NCBI GenBank assembly: GCA_040219515.1
Contig: JAVJSI010000011.1
Coordinates: forward strand, 124,001 to 188,000
From: Acidimicrobiales bacterium
GTDB taxonomy: Bacteria; Actinomycetota; Acidimicrobiia; Acidimicrobiales; Aldehydirespiratoraceae
Direction of reading: 5' to 3'
Length of the DNA: 64,000 nt
Both the position numbers and the translations under genes were made by a program. Each line of letters begins with the position of its first letter. The stretch's first letter is position 1. Below are positions 30,753 to 37,229 of the stretch, in pieces. The notes beneath the pieces are model-generated. The model did not search any database and had not been told where the DNA came from. It saw only the letters and a program-made list of their open reading frames with translations.

Positions 30753-32492
30753 TCAGAGGTACTGGCCGGTGGCCACCGAGTCGATCGACTTCCCGCCGGA
30801 TGCGTCGTTGTCGGTGTGGATGAGCGTGCGCACGTAGACGATGCGTTCGCCCTTCTTTCCCGAGATCTTCGCCCAGTCGTCGGGGTTGGTGGTGTTCGGA
30901 AGGTCTTCGTGCTCCTTGAATTCCTGGCGGATCGAGGAGAGCAGGTCGTCGGTGCGGATACCGCGCTCGCCGCCGGCGATCTCGCGCTTGATGGCCAACT
31001 TCTTGGCCCGGCGCACGATGTTCTCGATCATGGCGCCCGAAGAGAAGTCCTTGAAGAACATGACCTCTTTGTCGCCGTTCTGGTACGTGACTTCGAGGAA
31101 GCGGTTCGCGTCGTCTTCTCGGTACATCTCGCGAACGGTGTCTTCGATCATCGCCTGAATGGCCTTGTGGATGTCGCCGCCACCCTCGGTCTCGATCATG
31201 CCCTCGTCGATGGGGACATCGGCCGTGAGATAGCGGGCGAAGATCGGAATGGCCGCCTCGGCGTCGGGGCGCTCGATCTTGATCTTCACGTCGAGTCGTC
31301 CGGGCCGGAGGATGGCCGGATCGATGAGATCCTCCCGGTTCGACGCACCGATGACGATGACGTTGCGCAGCGTCTCGACGCCGTCGATCTCGGCCAACAG
31401 CTGGGGCACGATGGTGGACTCGATGTCGGAGCTGATCCCACTGCCTCGGGTGCGGAACAGTGATTCCATCTCGTCGAAGAACACGATGACCGGCCAGCCC
31501 TCCTCGCTCTTCTCGCGAGCCCGCTGGAACACCAGGCGTATCTGGCGCTCGGTCTCCCCCACGTACTTGTTGAGCAGCTCCGGGCCCTTGATGTTGAGAA
31601 AGAAGCTGCGGGCCTCCTTGTCGCCGGAGACCTCGGCCACCTTCTTGGCCAGACTGTTGGCCACGGCCTTCGCGATGAGTGTCTTGCCGCAGCCGGGTGG
31701 ACCGTAGAGCAGGATCCCCTTCGGTGCGGGCAGGTCGTACTCGGCGAACAACGCGCTGTGGACGAAGGGCAGCTCGACCGCGTCGGTGATCTCCTCGATC
31801 TGCGTGTCGAGGCCGCCGACGTCGTCGTAGGACACGTCGGGCACCTCCTCGAGCACGAGATCCTCCACCTCGGGGCGCGGGAGCCGCTCGAGCACCACAC
31901 CGGCACGCGGGTCGATGAGCAGGGTGTCGCCGCTGCGGAGGGGTTGGGAACGGGCGACGTCGCCGATCTCCACGACCCGTTCCTCGTCGGCGCGGCCGAT
32001 GATCAGGGCACGGTCGCCGCCGTCGAGCACGTCCTTGAGCGTGGCGACCTCGCCGGTGCGATCCGGGTTGCGCGCCAGGACGACGTTGAACGACTCGTTG
32101 AGCACGACCTCCTGGCCGAGTTCGAGCTGTCCGGCGAGTTCGGGCTGCACCGCGACACGCATCTTGCGGCCGCCGGCGTGGACGTCGACCGTCCCGTCGT
32201 CGTTGGCACCGAGCACCGTGCCGTAGCCCGAGGGCGGCTGGGTCAGCTTGTCCACCTCGTCGCGCAGGGTGGAGATGTGTTCGCGTGCTTCGCGCAGGGT
32301 GTAGGTGAGCTTCTCGTTCTGGGACACGGCCTTGCTGAGTTGCCCCTTGGTCTCGAGCAGGCGCTCCTCGAGGGTGCGTACCCGCTTGGGCGAGTCCTGG
32401 AGACGACGCCGCAGCGCGGTCACCTCGTCCTCGAGTTCGGCGGCGAGCATCCGAAGCCGGTTCACCTCGGCGGCGGTGTCATGGTCCTCCAC
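30753..32492 (-). CDS. mpa: Proteasome-activating AAA ATPase Mpa/ARC
   Basis: 579 residues from GTG 32492, with GGAGG four bases upstream. An N-terminal coiled coil (about 8-85) captures Pup, and two OB domains (about 90-230) follow. The AAA domain has [23 protein letters not shown] as sensor 1 and RPGRLD. The extreme C terminus is GQYL, the docking motif for the proteasome alpha ring. It unfolds pupylated proteins and feeds them to PrcAB. Separated from dop here by the aap operon. Confidence 0.96.
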
Positions 32493-32528
32493 GGTTCCTC
32501 CATCTCGTCGGCAACCCAACTCGGGGTC

Positions 32529-32711: not shown

Positions 32712-32769
32712 ACGCGAGTACGCCAGAGCGGGTCACCCGCTTCGAAACACAGTGAGGTCAGCACCACTC

Positions 32770-33003
32770 ATGAAGGTTTGGATCGACCAGGATCTTTGCA
32801 CCGGCGATGGCCTCTGCGAAGAAATCGCCCCCGACGTCTTCACCCTTCTCGACGACGGACTGGCCTATGTGAAGGAAGGCGACAAGATCTACTCCGACCC
32901 GGGCGGCCCCGAGGGCCTCGCGGTCGTGAAGGCCGGCCAGGAAGAGGCCACCATCGAGTCGGCCGAAGAGTGCCCCGGCGAGTGCATCTTCATCGAGATC
33001 TGA
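32770..33003 (+). CDS. Small ferredoxin, CxxDxxC...C type
   Basis: 77 residues from the ATG at 32770. C10, D13 and C16 (CTGDGLC) and C68-P form the ferredoxin ligand set. The Asp takes the place of the second cysteine, as in the Pyrococcus-type cluster, which can exist as 3Fe-4S or 4Fe-4S. An additional C72 replaces the usual Ala in CPxxAI. Actinobacterial relatives donate electrons to cytochromes P450 and related oxygenases; none is in the window. Convergent with the serine protease gene across a hairpin terminator. Confidence 0.9.
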   Translation: MKVWIDQDLCTGDGLCEEIAPDVFTLLDDGLAYVKEGDKIYSDPGGPEGLAVVKAGQEEATIESAEECPGECIFIEI

Positions 33004-33087: not shown

Positions 33088-33849
33088 TCAGCAATCCGGG
33101 ACGGTCTGGTTCGGGTCGAGACCGCGGGCCATGAGCTCCTCGATGGCGGTGCTGCGCACCGCGTAGCCCACGCCTTCCCCCGCCGTGGAGGTGGCGAAGG
33201 CGACACCGATCACCTCGCCGGTGCGGTCGACGAGCGCGGCGCCCGAGTCCCCCACTTGGACCTCGGCGGCGATGAGCCAGGCCGGCCGTTCGACCCGTGT
33301 GGTGCTGCCGACCGACTCGATGCGCACGGTGACCCGTCGCTCGACGCGATAGGGCGTGGGGTCGGCGAAGCCGCCGCGCTCCCAGCCGACGAGCACGCCG
33401 GTCGAGCCGTTGGCCGCGCGTTCGGTGAGCGGCAGCGGCACGAAGTCGGCATCGGGCACGTCGAGAATCGCAAGGTCGGCGTCGGCGTCGAACGCCACCG
33501 GGGTACCGATGAACTCGTCACCGTCGAACGTGTGGACGGTGATCTCGTCGATGCCCAGGATCACATGGGCGTTGGTGACCACCAGCGTGTCGGTGAGCGC
33601 GAACCCCGATCCCGAGGCGACGCGGCCGCAGGCCACGCCCTGGATGCTCACCGTCGACGGCAGCACGGCGGCGAGCTGCTGTTCGGAAAGGCCGTGATCG
33701 TCGGGAACCGGGCCCACGTCGGGAGTGGTGGCCGAGGCCGCGGGTGTGGCGACGGGATCGTCGCTGCCGCAGGCGGACACGGACGCGACCAGGGCCATGG
33801 CAACGACGGACTGCAGCCACCGCACCCGTCGGCGGCCGGGAGGCCTCAT
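33088..33849 (-). CDS. Trypsin-like serine protease lipoprotein
   Basis: 253 residues. The ATG overlaps the trmI stop (ATGA). The signal peptide ends VSAC, giving a lipidated Cys27. The chymotrypsin-fold triad is H95 (VVTNAHVIL), D125 (DADADLAIL) and S202 (VQVGDSGAAL). No PDZ domain follows, unlike HtrA. It resembles mycobacterial MarP-like or small DegP-like proteases acting outside the membrane; substrate unknown. Last gene of the long minus-strand operon that starts at 38680. Confidence 0.88.
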   Translation of the reverse strand: MRPPGRRRVRWLQSVVAMALVASVSACGSDDPVATPAASATTPDVGPVPDDHGLSEQQLAAVLPSTVSIQGVACGRVASGSGFALTDTLVVTNAHVILGIDEITVHTFDGDEFIGTPVAFDADADLAILDVPDADFVPLPLTERAANGSTGVLVGWERGGFADPTPYRVERRVTVRIESVGSTTRVERPAWLIAAEVQVGDSGAALVDRTGEVIGVAFATSTAGEGVGYAVRSTAIEELMARGLDPNQTVPDC

Positions 33850-34625
33850 TCCTCCAGGAGCCGGGCGTGCGTGAGGAAGCCCGTGTGGGCCACCATCCGG
33901 TGGTCGGGACGCACGGCGGTGCCCTGCACGTGCCATCCGCGATTGAGCACTTCGACGGTCTCGGCGAAGCCGAGCTTGGATTCCTCGAGCGCGTCGTGGA
34001 GTTGGGAGACCTGGATGATGCTCGGCGTGTAGGCCACGAAGATGCCGCCGGGCCGGAGGGCCTTCTCGGCATGGGGTACGACCTGCCACGGTTCGGGCAG
34101 ATCCAGGACGATCCGGTCGAGGTCGGTCTCGTCGATGCCCTCGTAGACGTCGTGGAGATGGGTGGTGTAGTGCTCCATCGCCGCCGGGCCGAGGAAGCGG
34201 GTCACGTTCTCCCGGGCCTTCTCGAGGAAGTCCTCGCGGATCTCGTAGCCGGTGATCTCGGCGCCCGCCCGCAGCATCCCGATGGACAACGCGCCACTAC
34301 CGAGACCGGACTCGAGCACCCGAGCGCCAGGGAAGATGTCGGCCAGGATGAGGATCGGGCCGATGTCCTTCGGGTAGATGACCTGCGCGCCGCGGGGCAT
34401 CTTCAGAATGAAGTCGCTGATGGTCGGGCGCAGGGCGGTGAAGACCATGCCGCGGGTGGAACGAAACGTGGTGCCCTCCGGCGACCCGATCATGTCGTCG
34501 TGGGGCAGGACACCCGAGTGGGAATGGAACTCTCCCCCATCGGCCAGGTCGATCAGGTAGCGCCGCAGCTTGCGGTCGATCAGCATGACCGGCTCGCCCG
34601 CAGTGAGCGGTCCGCTGCGGCTCAT
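33846..34625 (-). CDS. trmI: tRNA (adenine-58-N1)-methyltransferase TrmI
   Basis: 259 residues. An N-terminal beta domain is followed by a SAM-binding Rossmann fold with VLESGLGSGALS (motif I). GYEIREDFLEKA and DRIVLDLPEPW (motif IV) are the standard TrmI signatures. It methylates A58 in the tRNA T-loop. The mycobacterial orthologue Rv2118c also lies near mpa. The ATG overlaps the ttuA stop (ATGA), so TrmI and the T-loop thiolation enzyme are translationally coupled. Confidence 0.94.
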   Translation of the reverse strand: MSRSGPLTAGEPVMLIDRKLRRYLIDLADGGEFHSHSGVLPHDDMIGSPEGTTFRSTRGMVFTALRPTISDFILKMPRGAQVIYPKDIGPILILADIFPGARVLESGLGSGALSIGMLRAGAEITGYEIREDFLEKARENVTRFLGPAAMEHYTTHLHDVYEGIDETDLDRIVLDLPEPWQVVPHAEKALRPGGIFVAYTPSIIQVSQLHDALEESKLGFAETVEVLNRGWHVQGTAVRPDHRMVAHTGFLTHARLLEE

Positions 34626-35578
34626 CGCCGTGCCCCCGAGCGGCGGCGGGTGCGCCCCAGCTCGATCGGAACGGCATCGGTGGCCCGTTCGGTGAGGCGG
34701 CAGAACGCACAGACGTCGTTGGAGCTCGGCGCGCCGCAGCGCGCACAGGGGGTGATGATCACGTCGGCAGTCTCGCCCGTCGGGACGACAAAGCGGTCGG
34801 CGGCGCGGTCGAGGAACCCGAAGAAGAACGCGTGCTTCGCGCCCGGCGAGTCGACCTCGATGTCGTTCAGGGCGGCCTTGTAGGAGAGATGCTTGTTGCC
34901 GGCCGCCATGGGGCACTCGTCGACGAGATAGTCGATTCCGCGCATCAGGCAGTAGGCCGCGGTCTCGCGTTCGGTCAGCCGGACGAGCGGTTTCACCTTC
35001 TTCGGAAAGCCGTTGGCCGCAGGGAGATGGGGCGACTGGCGGCCCAGGTAGTCGGTCTGCCAGTGCAACACGTTGCCCATCAGCACGGCGGCTTCGTCGT
35101 CGAGGTTGTGGCCGGTGACGATGGCGTCGTAGCCGCCCCGGCGAGCCGCCTCGTCGAAGAGGTGACGCTTCGACAACCCGCAGGCCGAGCAGGGCGCCCG
35201 CTTGGCGGCGCGGCTGCCGTGGGGAACGTCGAAGCCGTGGTCGCGCAACAGGTCGTCGACCAACAGCGTCAGACCACGGGCCTCGGCGAAGCGCTCGGCG
35301 AACCCCCGCGACTCGCGGCTGTACTCGCCGATGCCGAGCCCGATGTAGAACCCGTCGGCCTGGTAGCCGAGCTCGAGCAGGATGTCCCAGACGGCGAGCG
35401 AGTCCTTGCCGCCGCTGACGGCAACCAGCACCCGGTCGTCGTCGGCGAGCATCGAGAACTCGTCGATCGCCTTCCTGGTCTGATCGCGGCAGAGGCGAAG
35501 GAAGTGTTCCTGGCAGAAGTTCGCGTTGTGGCGGCGAACATCGATCAGGGCCGGGCCCCGGCACACCTGGCACTTCAC
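34622..35578 (-). CDS. ttuA: TtuA/Ncs6-family tRNA 2-thiolation enzyme
   Basis: 318 residues. There is an N-terminal zinc finger (C3, C6, C22, H25). The PP-loop is VAVSGGKDS (52-60). C130/C133 and C222 are placed as the Fe-S cluster ligands of TtuA, and a C-terminal second zinc knuckle is present (CARC...CAFC). The family activates uridine with ATP and inserts sulfur from a ubiquitin-like carrier, at position 54 in TtuA. The neighbours are a ThiS/TtuB-like carrier 24 bp upstream and TrmI overlapping downstream. Position 54 rather than 34 is inferred from this context. Confidence 0.88.
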   Translation of the reverse strand: MKCQVCRGPALIDVRRHNANFCQEHFLRLCRDQTRKAIDEFSMLADDDRVLVAVSGGKDSLAVWDILLELGYQADGFYIGLGIGEYSRESRGFAERFAEARGLTLLVDDLLRDHGFDVPHGSRAAKRAPCSACGLSKRHLFDEAARRGGYDAIVTGHNLDDEAAVLMGNVLHWQTDYLGRQSPHLPAANGFPKKVKPLVRLTERETAAYCLMRGIDYLVDECPMAAGNKHLSYKAALNDIEVDSPGAKHAFFFGFLDRAADRFVVPTGETADVIITPCARCGAPSSNDVCAFCRLTERATDAVPIELGRTRRRSGARR

Positions 35579-35602
35579 GGCAGGGTCTCCGTCACGGGGG
35601 CC

Positions 35603-35806
35603 TCAGTCATGGGCGCCACCGGAGATCACGGAGCGGATCTCGACGACGGCGTCCTTCCCGAGCGTCTTGTCGCCGGGCACGAGCTGACCGTCCTCGATCA
35701 CGAGGTGTGATTCCCGGTTGAGGTCGAGCCGCTGCAACAGCACGGAGACCTGCACCGGTCCGTCCATCTCGACCTCGCGCGACGGGTTGCGAAGGAGGAC
35801 CTTCAC
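35603..35806 (-). CDS. Ubiquitin-like sulfur-carrier protein (TtuB/ThiS type) with extended tail
   Basis: 67 residues from a GTG placed directly after the upstream stop. It has a beta-grasp pattern ([37 protein letters not shown]) and a C-terminal SGGAHD. Carriers of this class need a free Gly-Gly end to accept sulfur as a thiocarboxylate. Here three residues follow the GG, so a peptidase would have to trim AHD, as in processed ubiquitin precursors. Sits just before ttuA in the same operon. An E1-like activating enzyme (TtuC/MoeB) is not in the window. Confidence 0.85.
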
Positions 35807-36046
35807 TCAGGACTTTCCACGGGTGTCGGTGGTGTGGCGGATCACGAGCTCTTCGCCGGGCTGGAGCGCTTCGGAGAATCGGACCGGCATCTCGCCGCGC
35901 TTCGTGACGTTGCCCATCCACCGCACCACGTAGCTCAGCCCGAAGATGGTGAGCCAGAAACGCGAACCGCCGAGCAGGCCCTTGCGGACGCTGTTCGTGC
36001 GGATCATTCGCTTGGCGTAGGTGGGCCCGAAGCCGCGACCGGCCAT
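35807..36046 (-). CDS. Small conserved protein with one hydrophobic segment
   Basis: 79 residues. A central stretch SRFWLTIFGLSYVVRWM may enter the membrane, with a basic N terminus and a charged C terminus (EELVIRHTTDTRGKS). Family not recognised. Its stop directly abuts the GTG of the sulfur-carrier gene, so the two are co-translated. Confidence 0.65.
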   Translation of the reverse strand: MAGRGFGPTYAKRMIRTNSVRKGLLGGSRFWLTIFGLSYVVRWMGNVTKRGEMPVRFSEALQPGEELVIRHTTDTRGKS

Positions 36047-36285
36047 CAGATGCGCCGAATCTCCACGACCGTCGACTTCGTGGTGCCGACGCGTTTGCCG
36101 AGTCGGTAGACGACGAAGAGCACGAGCAGGCCGCCACCGACGACGACCGGCATCATCTTCCTGGCGGTGCTCTGGACCGTCTTCTCGGCTTCACCGACGA
36201 AGCTGCGCAGGCCCGCTTCGATGTCGTCGCGGGTGATCGGCTCACCGACGGTCGCGTTCTTCTCGGACTTGCGGTCGGATGCCAT
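36046..36285 (-). CDS. Small single-pass membrane protein
   Basis: 79 residues from the ATG at 36285 (TGATG overlap with the upstream gene). A hydrophilic helical N terminus (ITRDDIEAGLRSFVGEAEKTVQ) precedes one membrane helix (MMPVVVGGGLLVLFVVYRLG) and a basic tail. Function unknown. It forms a pair of small membrane proteins with the next-upstream gene. Confidence 0.7.
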   Translation of the reverse strand: MASDRKSEKNATVGEPITRDDIEAGLRSFVGEAEKTVQSTARKMMPVVVGGGLLVLFVVYRLGKRVGTTKSTVVEIRRI

Positions 36286-36581
36286 CACAGGCTCCTCTTC
36301 GTGATGCGCCAGACGAGCAGGGCGATGATCACCAGGGCGGCGCCGAGCGTGGCGAGGTACGGAAACCACGAGAGATTGCCCGTGAACGTCGACCCGGTCT
36401 CCTCCTGGAGGACACGGAGCATCGACATGGTGAGCGCCACGCCACCCAGCATGAGCAGCACGCTGCCGGCGATGCCGAAACCGACCCATCGGCCGGCCCC
36501 GCGCAGCGGCTCGATTGTCTCTTGTCGTGCGTATGCCTTGACCAACTCGAAGAAGTCGCCCGGGCCCATTCGATCTGCCAT
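36285..36581 (-). CDS. Small two-helix membrane protein (holin/Act-superfamily-like)
   Basis: 98 residues with a soluble N-terminal helix (DFFELVKAYARQETIEPL) and two membrane helices (about 31-53 and 72-92). The layout resembles the Phage_holin_3_6 or actinobacterial holin-superfamily proteins that accompany housekeeping operons; that resemblance is weak. Ends overlapping the start of the next gene. Confidence 0.7.
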   Translation of the reverse strand: MADRMGPGDFFELVKAYARQETIEPLRGAGRWVGFGIAGSVLLMLGGVALTMSMLRVLQEETGSTFTGNLSWFPYLATLGAALVIIALLVWRITKRSL

Positions 36582-36593
36582 TGGAAAAACACC

Positions 36594-37229
36594 CTATCCG
36601 CGCTCGTCGGCCAGAGCCTCCAGCATCTCGGCGCGTTCTCGCACGAGGCCCTCGGCGAGGTGGAGTCGTTCGGCCGCGCCGGGAGTGCGCAACAGGGTGG
36701 TCGTGTCGAGGCTGTTGAGCTGCGCGAACCCTGCGGCCTCCCAGGTCGCCTGGGCCGGGTCGTCGCTCAGTGTCGGCACATCGACGGGGTGGTCGGGTTG
36801 GAGGCGCGCGACGGCCGCGCCGATCCGTTCGAGCTCGGCCGTCATGGTCGTCAGCGGATCGTCGCCGAGCTGCGCGACATAGCGGTCCGCGTCGTCGTCG
36901 GGCCAATCCTCGACCCGGGCCCGCGGGTACGGATCGTCGGTCAGCCACTCGATCACGCGCAGGCGTCGGGTGGCGACGGCGATCAGCGCCCACCGGCCGT
37001 CGGGGTACTCCTCGAAGTCGACGACGCGGGCGACGACGGCGACGTCGGCGCGCACGTCCTCGCCGCCGACCTCGCGGCCCCGCTCGATCGGCGCGATGCC
37101 GAACTCGGGTTCGTCGAGGGAGGTGACCGCGGCGGCGAGGGCCCGATACCGGGGTTCGAAGATGTGCAGCGGCACCACCGCGGTCGGTGCGACCGTGTGC
37201 TCCAGTGGGAACATCGGCAGCTCGTACAC
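36594..37229 (-). CDS. LON substrate-binding domain protein (no protease domain)
   Basis: 211 residues starting YELPMFPLEHTVAPTAVVPLHIFEPRYRAL, the LON N-terminal domain. Typical later features are FGIAPIERG and a helical C terminus. The AAA and Ser-Lys protease domains of Lon are absent. Standalone LAN proteins are common in actinobacteria and may recognise unfolded proteins; partners unknown. It starts 2 bp after the S13 peptidase stop. Confidence 0.88.
   Translation of the reverse strand: MYELPMFPLEHTVAPTAVVPLHIFEPRYRALAAAVTSLDEPEFGIAPIERGREVGGEDVRADVAVVARVVDFEEYPDGRWALIAVATRRLRVIEWLTDDPYPRARVEDWPDDDADRYVAQLGDDPLTTMTAELERIGAAVARLQPDHPVDVPTLSDDPAQATWEAAGFAQLNSLDTTTLLRTPGAAERLHLAEGLVRERAEMLEALADERG

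Follow-up and report, generated by a model that had tools for sequence, protein, structure and literature searches.

A predicted TtuB-TtuA-TrmI tRNA modification operon in an Acidimicrobiales bacterium, with a sulfur carrier probably made as a precursor

Thiolation of tRNA uridine 54 (U54) by the enzyme TtuA and the carrier TtuB, with the sulfur held on the C-terminal glycine of the carrier, is described in reviews as a trait of thermophiles. Work on Thermus reports the numbering of TtuA C222 and K137, the cysteines of its cluster, K137 as the lysine modified by TtuB, and a JAMM peptidase whose deletion leaves roughly half of the thiouridine and leads to aberrant conjugates of TtuB (PMC3980101); in addition, 1-methyladenosine at position 58 (m1A58) is reported to speed thiolation by the Thermus TtuA (PMC6418473, PMC7912444). 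Here, a row of three genes encoding a TtuB-like carrier, a TtuA-type enzyme and the m1A58 methyltransferase TrmI was analyzed in a 64,000-nucleotide stretch of DNA from an Acidimicrobiales bacterium (GCA_040219515.1, contig JAVJSI010000011.1, positions 124,001 to 188,000; the whole stretch is termed the window). The encoded carrier was found to lack a C-terminal Gly-Gly, ending in GGAHD, and was hence classified as a TtuB-like precursor. Judged from its sequence, the row is likely to represent a T-loop modification operon of TtuB, TtuA and TrmI in which the carrier is made as a precursor (a "pro-TtuB" variant). In a broader and somewhat doubtful reading, the maturation of ubiquitin precursors would have its equivalent in bacteria here, within a pathway to 2-thiouridine at position 54 (s2U54) outside thermophiles.

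Residues past the Gly-Gly of the carriers QbsE and HcyS are removed by a JAMM peptidase encoded beside the carrier (QbsD and HcyD), in siderophore and methionine biosynthesis. The best precedent for a cut in the carrier examined here is MoaX, which is reported to be cut in mycobacteria between Gly82 and Ser83 by a peptidase then unidentified, to be inactive when uncut, and to fail to yield the expected product in E. coli (PMC4326299). Furthermore, DrJAMM is reported to cut MoaD-MoaE (PMC8832034), JAB peptidases were suggested by Iyer et al. to free fused ThiS/MoaD domains (PMC1779556), Mec+ acts on CysO-cysteine (PMC3227635), and the Gly-Gly of SUMO is exposed by proteolysis (PMC12645042). No TtuB-TtuA fusion, TtuB tail or TtuB maturation step was found in the open-licence literature searched, which was available in part; this agrees with the view of the initial annotation that such a step is not described for TtuB, though MoaX and MoaD-MoaE are close precedents among related carriers.

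The three genes lie between window positions 33846 and 35806, all on the minus strand and in the order carrier, TtuA and TrmI, and their GC content at the third codon position (0.88-0.91) indicates that all three are coding. TrmI shares 4 bp (ATGA) with TtuA, while 24 nt separate the carrier from TtuA; the overlap that had been proposed for the module therefore holds for TtuA and TrmI only. A profile built from 22 relatives of the carrier matched the TtuB structures 5gha_E (2.6e-15) and 5ztb_E (3.2e-15), and an AlphaFold2 model of carrier residues 1-65, with a predicted local distance difference test (pLDDT) score of 88.6, had TtuB 5ztb_E as its top Foldseek match (template modeling score 0.88), which points to a TtuB-like beta-grasp fold. 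In an alignment of 13 TtuA sequences, the PP-loop SGGKDS (residues 55-60), C130, C133, C222 and K137, as well as the zinc-finger cysteines C278, C281, C290 and C293, were found to be invariant. The Pfam domains TtuA_LIM_N (33.5 bits, cut-off 27) and ATP_bind_3 were detected in TtuA above their cut-offs, as were GCD14 (88.6 bits) and TrmI-like_N (69.8 bits) in TrmI. When NCBIfam models were compared, TtuA was scored at 252.8 bits by the Pyrococcus TtuA model and 102.1 bits by that of NcsA; similarly, it matched the Thermus TtuA structures 5gha/5b4e at 293 bits versus 84 bits for the U34 thiolase 6scy.

The arrangement was also examined across related genomes. Of an initial 110 loci, 107 had a carrier match together with TtuA, which argues against a chance arrangement, and 102 had a TrmI match. 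The three gene identities and the single module proposed from the window are thus supported. After further genomes had been included and redundancy and TtuA pieces shorter than 230 amino acids had been removed (210 loci reduced to 178), a same-strand TrmI frame extending past TtuA was found in 154 of the 178 loci; 18 of the 178 were set aside for tail-state counts, as they had no readable adjacent carrier, leaving 160. Within a class sample of 148 genomes, TtuA matches were detected in 68 at E ≤ 0.001, including 60 at E < 1e-50, and the closest named relatives were mostly Acidimicrobiia metagenome genomes. The family of the window was represented in this sample by one other genome, which had no TtuA match. 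Across the class, the module appears as a frequent gene row, present in a large fraction of the genomes sampled, and its carrier apparently needs to be cut first. Acidimicrobiia-like modules were also seen in four records titled Bifidobacterium breve (L050, L058, L074 and L095), titles that look wrong. Distant TtuA relatives (L188-L199 and L201, about 30% identity, f51-type) were found without an adjacent carrier; a JAMM search of seven f51 genomes with such relatives gave none, and these enzymes may use another sulfur source.

Gly-Gly was internal in 142 of the 160 non-redundant carriers, with 111 carrying a tail after the Gly-Gly and 31 fused in frame to TtuA, while 18 ended cleanly. Tailed carriers were also found in records titled Chloroflexota, Leptospirillum, Nitrospirae, Rokuibacteriota and Bacillota. 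The C-terminal maturation suspected from the window would thus be needed more widely than was supposed. Sequencing error, which had been raised as a source of the extra codons should homologues end cleanly in Gly-Gly, was ruled out: clean homologues exist (18/160), yet tails and fusions occur in the remaining 142 loci, from many genomes. In the fusions, the linker between Gly-Gly and the first zinc-finger cysteine of TtuA spans 4-11 residues and contains no ATG, GTG or TTG in 28 of 31 cases, with CTG present in three of these 28. Three of the start-free fusions (G276, G215 and G374) are in single-contig genomes, so an assembly error is unlikely. Such fusions would be made as one polyprotein, in which the carrier cannot form a thiocarboxylate unless cut, and they render a cut after Gly-Gly close to compulsory. 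An AlphaFold2 model of one fusion (L112) was too poor for distances (mean pLDDT 54.6, junction residues 60-66 below 50). Unusually long tails of 55 (L018), 64 (L125) and 27 (L137) residues were seen; that of L018 carries a repeated segment, and those of L125 and L137 start alike. A conserved tail motif was considered and rejected, as tail length and later residues vary and a clear bias is seen at the first residue alone.

Immediately after Gly-Gly, 122 of the 142 non-redundant tailed or fused carriers had either Ala (93 carriers) or Ser (29 carriers), while the second residue took 15 different values (n = 132); the entropies were 1.68 and 3.23 bits, respectively, and parsimony over 82 rows required 20 changes at the first position versus 47 at the second. 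Ala was encoded by all four of its codons and Ser by TCN and AGC, which suggests that the constraint is on the protein rather than the DNA. SGG was kept while tails varied, and the Gly-Gly was retained in tailed, clean and fused carriers alike. On a TtuA tree of 106 of the 178 loci, in which the tailed rows were partly drawn at random, the clean state changed 11 times (at least 6 forced by starred branches) and the fused state 7 times (at least 4 forced). Repeated interchange of this kind would be expected if clean, tailed and fused genes all give the same mature protein, and, together with the Ala/Ser bias, is the expected outcome of a cut after Gly-Gly that favors a small next residue.

Both an E1-like protein and a JAMM peptidase, for which the initial annotation had proposed searching the genome, were found to be present. 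The E1 is of the MoeB/MoeZ type with a rhodanese domain, N-terminal in this case (L041:5894-7060, minus strand; 543.9 bits to PRK08762). The JAMM peptidase (L039:5704-6120, contig C8) has an intact HxHx7SxxD motif (HSHTHTTNYPSPTD) and matches Prok-JAB above its cut-off at 61.4 bits; its top NCBIfam model was desampylase at 58.2 bits, below the cut-off of 130. This Mec/desampylase-type enzyme is the leading candidate for the processor, with about an even chance of being the right one. Two further ThiS-family carriers of the genome end cleanly in GG; we take these to be CysO-like (best model SAMP1) and MoaD-like. A CysM-like enzyme is encoded on the same contig as the JAMM. A third ThiS-family match was detected at C18:246727-246948 (L036, 54.4 bits). 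Mycobacterial MoeZR is reported to thiocarboxylate both MoaD and CysO (PMC3227635), which makes a single E1 for several carriers plausible. The genome also encodes a second JAMM, in a row (L040:5739-8655) with a small protein resembling YukD (26.5 bits against a cut-off of 27) and an E1; this row is perhaps a ubiquitin-like system linked to type VII secretion.

The occurrence of JAMM was compared with the state of the carrier. A match above the cut-off was detected in 25 of 25 fusion genomes of one set examined. The comparison covered 123 of 124 hand-listed genomes with a read carrier (G111 was dropped), a subset of all genomes searched, and JAMM was found in 98 of the 103 genomes with an internal Gly-Gly versus 16 of the 20 with a clean carrier (raw Fisher p 0.038). 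JAMM was also present in 58 of the 60 strong-TtuA class genomes versus 106 of the 148 overall; this co-occurrence was given no weight, since among the 20 JAMM-less genomes listed (of 42 in all), 14 are about 1 Mb in size, belong to one family and have no TtuA match.

The product of the module was considered from the methyltransferases of the genome. No TrmFO (TIGR00137) was detected above the cut-off in the 148 class genomes, including the present one, with weak matches of about 24 bits or less in 17 of them; no TrmA-type protein (PF05958) was found in the genome itself. Among the 80 genomes that have TtuA or a relative, 25 gave PF05958 matches, the majority weak or partial, so other lineages may differ. 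These absences suggest that s2U54 is the expected product rather than m5s2U54 (2-thioribothymidine), and the 2-thioribothymidine anticipated at the outset is unlikely; the module thus predicts an unmethylated s2U54. Coordination of positions 54 and 58 is a fair inference, by analogy, from the gene order and the Thermus literature.

Based on these findings, maturation probably proceeds as follows. An endopeptidase that recognizes the ubiquitin fold would cut after Gly-Gly, tolerating a small next residue (Ala or Ser), and would thereby strip off the tail, Ala-His-Asp in this carrier; in relatives, it would split the TtuB-TtuA polyprotein into carrier and enzyme. The exposed glycine would be adenylated and thiocarboxylated by the rhodanese-E1 of the genome. 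TtuA, with a predicted [4Fe-4S] cluster on C130, C133 and C222, would pass the sulfur to C2 of U54 to form s2U54, and TrmI would methylate A58, the step that speeds thiolation in Thermus. A broader version, in which Actinobacteria and some other bacteria make a ubiquitin-style carrier precursor, in many cases as a polyprotein of TtuB and TtuA from which a JAMM shared with CysO frees the two in a one-to-one ratio, and in which the processed carrier may also tag proteins, is put forward tentatively and is somewhat doubtful.

Several observations weigh against the proposed precursor and its processing. The best Pfam match of the carrier was SAMP2 (7.6e-6), which at 26.7 bits is just below the cut-off of 27, and the best NCBIfam match of TtuA, the Pyrococcus model noted above (NF049949), is below its cut-off of 450. 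When residues after Gly-Gly were split more coarsely into Ala/Ser versus the rest, the contrast was milder, with 7 changes at the first position and 11 at the second. Among the 28 start-free fusions, 16 have a GTG or ATG 4-5 codons before the Gly-Gly end that could serve as a near-full TtuA start; judged from the frame, reading through the carrier would still yield a polyprotein. No JAMM gene was found beside the module in the flanks (mostly 1.5-4 kb; 35 loci of at least 8 kb) of the 178 loci, and clean carriers mostly coexist with JAMM, as seen from the 16 of 20 genomes. A phylogenetic pairs test of JAMM against tail state gave 6 starred pairs, too few for significance (median p 1). The JAMM search of two fusion genomes, G177 (94% complete) and G161, returned only weak matches with an HNHPSGDP motif, which we take to be RadC-like, and none was found in the tailed genomes G100, G378 and G165; completeness of these JAMM-poor genomes is 81-94% where stated (not stated for G161 and G165). 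Because the JAMM of actinobacteria (Mec+) acts for CysO as well, one would expect to find it in any case. Finally, position 54 is assigned only from the family of the enzyme.

The short tail could instead be a by-product of translational coupling, with the Gly-Gly codons serving as the ribosome-binding site of TtuA, the tail setting the distance to an overlapping start codon and general carboxypeptidases trimming the protein. After redundancy removal (136 carriers reduced to 112), two residues were indeed the most frequent tail length among unfused carriers (56 of 106); in 48 of these 56 the stop codon overlaps the TtuA start by 4 bp with GGNGGN a few nucleotides upstream, and GGA encodes the first Gly in 26 of 112 carriers, whereas it makes up 11.4% of the Gly codons of TtuA frames (binomial p 5e-4, uncorrected for kinship). 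Coupling, however, leaves unexplained the fusions, the tails of 10-64 residues and an Ala/Ser bias confined to the first residue, and in the window the carrier and TtuA do not overlap. We consider it unlikely as the whole explanation; it may account for the origin of the tails, which processing would still render harmless. That the carrier is vestigial or a docking domain, with TtuA taking free sulfide through its [4Fe-4S] cluster and no trimming needed, is very unlikely: a docking domain has no need of the Gly-Gly kept in all three forms, and the genome encodes an E1, even though a sulfide route has been proposed for organisms without TtuB (PMC8584467) and the distant f51-type relatives lack an adjacent carrier.

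Two other roles for the module were weighed against the s2U54 pathway. NcsA and TtuA are both reported to be Ncs6-type enzymes of one superfamily (PMC3980101, PMC8584467), and the module might thiolate another position, such as U34; we regard this as quite improbable given that the genome already encodes MnmA for U34 (231 bits), that both score comparisons given above favor TtuA, and that the partner gene is TrmI. Least of all do we expect the carrier to act mainly as a protein modifier of the neighboring Pup-proteasome locus. TtuB is reported to conjugate to proteins in Thermus (PMC3980101), and a relative of the Pup-proteasome ATPase ARC/Mpa was found in 26 of the 35 loci of at least 8 kb; the tightest link of the carrier, however, is to TtuA. 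TrmI lies near Mpa in mycobacteria too, and the proximity may therefore be inherited.

The features of the locus are listed in Table 1. The 79-amino-acid protein had no match in Pfam and NCBIfam searches, and its relatives were present in 13 of the 35 longer loci; those of the trypsin-like peptidase were present in 21. The ARC/Mpa gene is located near the module (window 30753-32519, minus strand; 763 bits to pup_AAA). Other neighbors include (i) a 4Fe-4S ferredoxin (32752-33003, plus strand; relatives in 24 of the 35 loci), which could supply electrons or clusters to TtuA; (ii) a holin-like membrane protein (36285-36581, minus strand; 31 of 35), whose Pfam score is below the cut-off; and (iii) a Lon substrate-binding-domain protein (36594-37229, minus strand; 23 of 35). 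A search of the 64-kb window for tRNA genes found none.

Table 1. Features of the carrier-TtuA-TrmI locus (window coordinates)
Feature	Position	Strand	Remarks
TtuB-like ubiquitin-fold sulfur carrier precursor, 67 aa, GTG start	35603..35806	-	Ends VISGG-AHD
Gly63-Gly64 codons, predicted cleavage after Gly64	35615..35620	-	S62-G63-G64 invariant in 22-sequence alignment
Ala-His-Asp tail codons, removal predicted	35606..35614	-	
TtuA-type tRNA 2-thiouridine synthase, 318 aa, PP-loop, two zinc fingers	34622..35578	-	Profile and structure-sequence matches
TrmI, tRNA m1A58 methyltransferase, 259 aa	33846..34625	-	GCD14 and TrmI-like_N domains
79-aa protein	35807..36046	-	Stop abuts carrier start; module membership unproven
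Trypsin-like peptidase, downstream	33088..33849	-	Start overlaps TrmI stop; Trypsin_2 5.1e-18; probably a mere neighbor

When compared with known systems, the module most resembles that for 2-thioribothymidine 54 in Thermus thermophilus, with which it shares the C222/K137 numbering of TtuA, a carrier of TtuB fold, the availability of an E1 and a rhodanese domain, and TrmI acting on the same loop; it differs in the internal Gly-Gly, the operon-like gene row, the fusions of relatives and a genome in which no m5U54 methyltransferase was found. The cysteines of the Pyrococcus TtuA match those of the window enzyme two residues on. Like the actinobacterial CysO/Mec+ pair, the proposed maturation would involve a peptidase acting at the C-terminal Gly-Gly of a carrier, whereas CysO ends cleanly in GG and the substrate of Mec+ is CysO-cysteine. 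Exposure of Gly-Gly is also shared with SUMO and ubiquitin-like precursors, which differ as eukaryotic modifiers processed by other peptidases. In contrast to QbsE/QbsD and HcyS/HcyD, the module has no JAMM gene in the flanks examined. The system would offer a clear way to test how bacteria process ubiquitin-like precursors, here tied to tRNA modification, and may help to name the peptidase of mycobacterial MoaX. The latter and the Deinococcus MoaD-MoaE belong to another carrier family and to the molybdopterin pathway, yet share with the fusions described here a carrier joined to the enzyme that it serves, a cut after Gly-Gly (predicted in the present case) and a small next residue (GG|S in MoaX).

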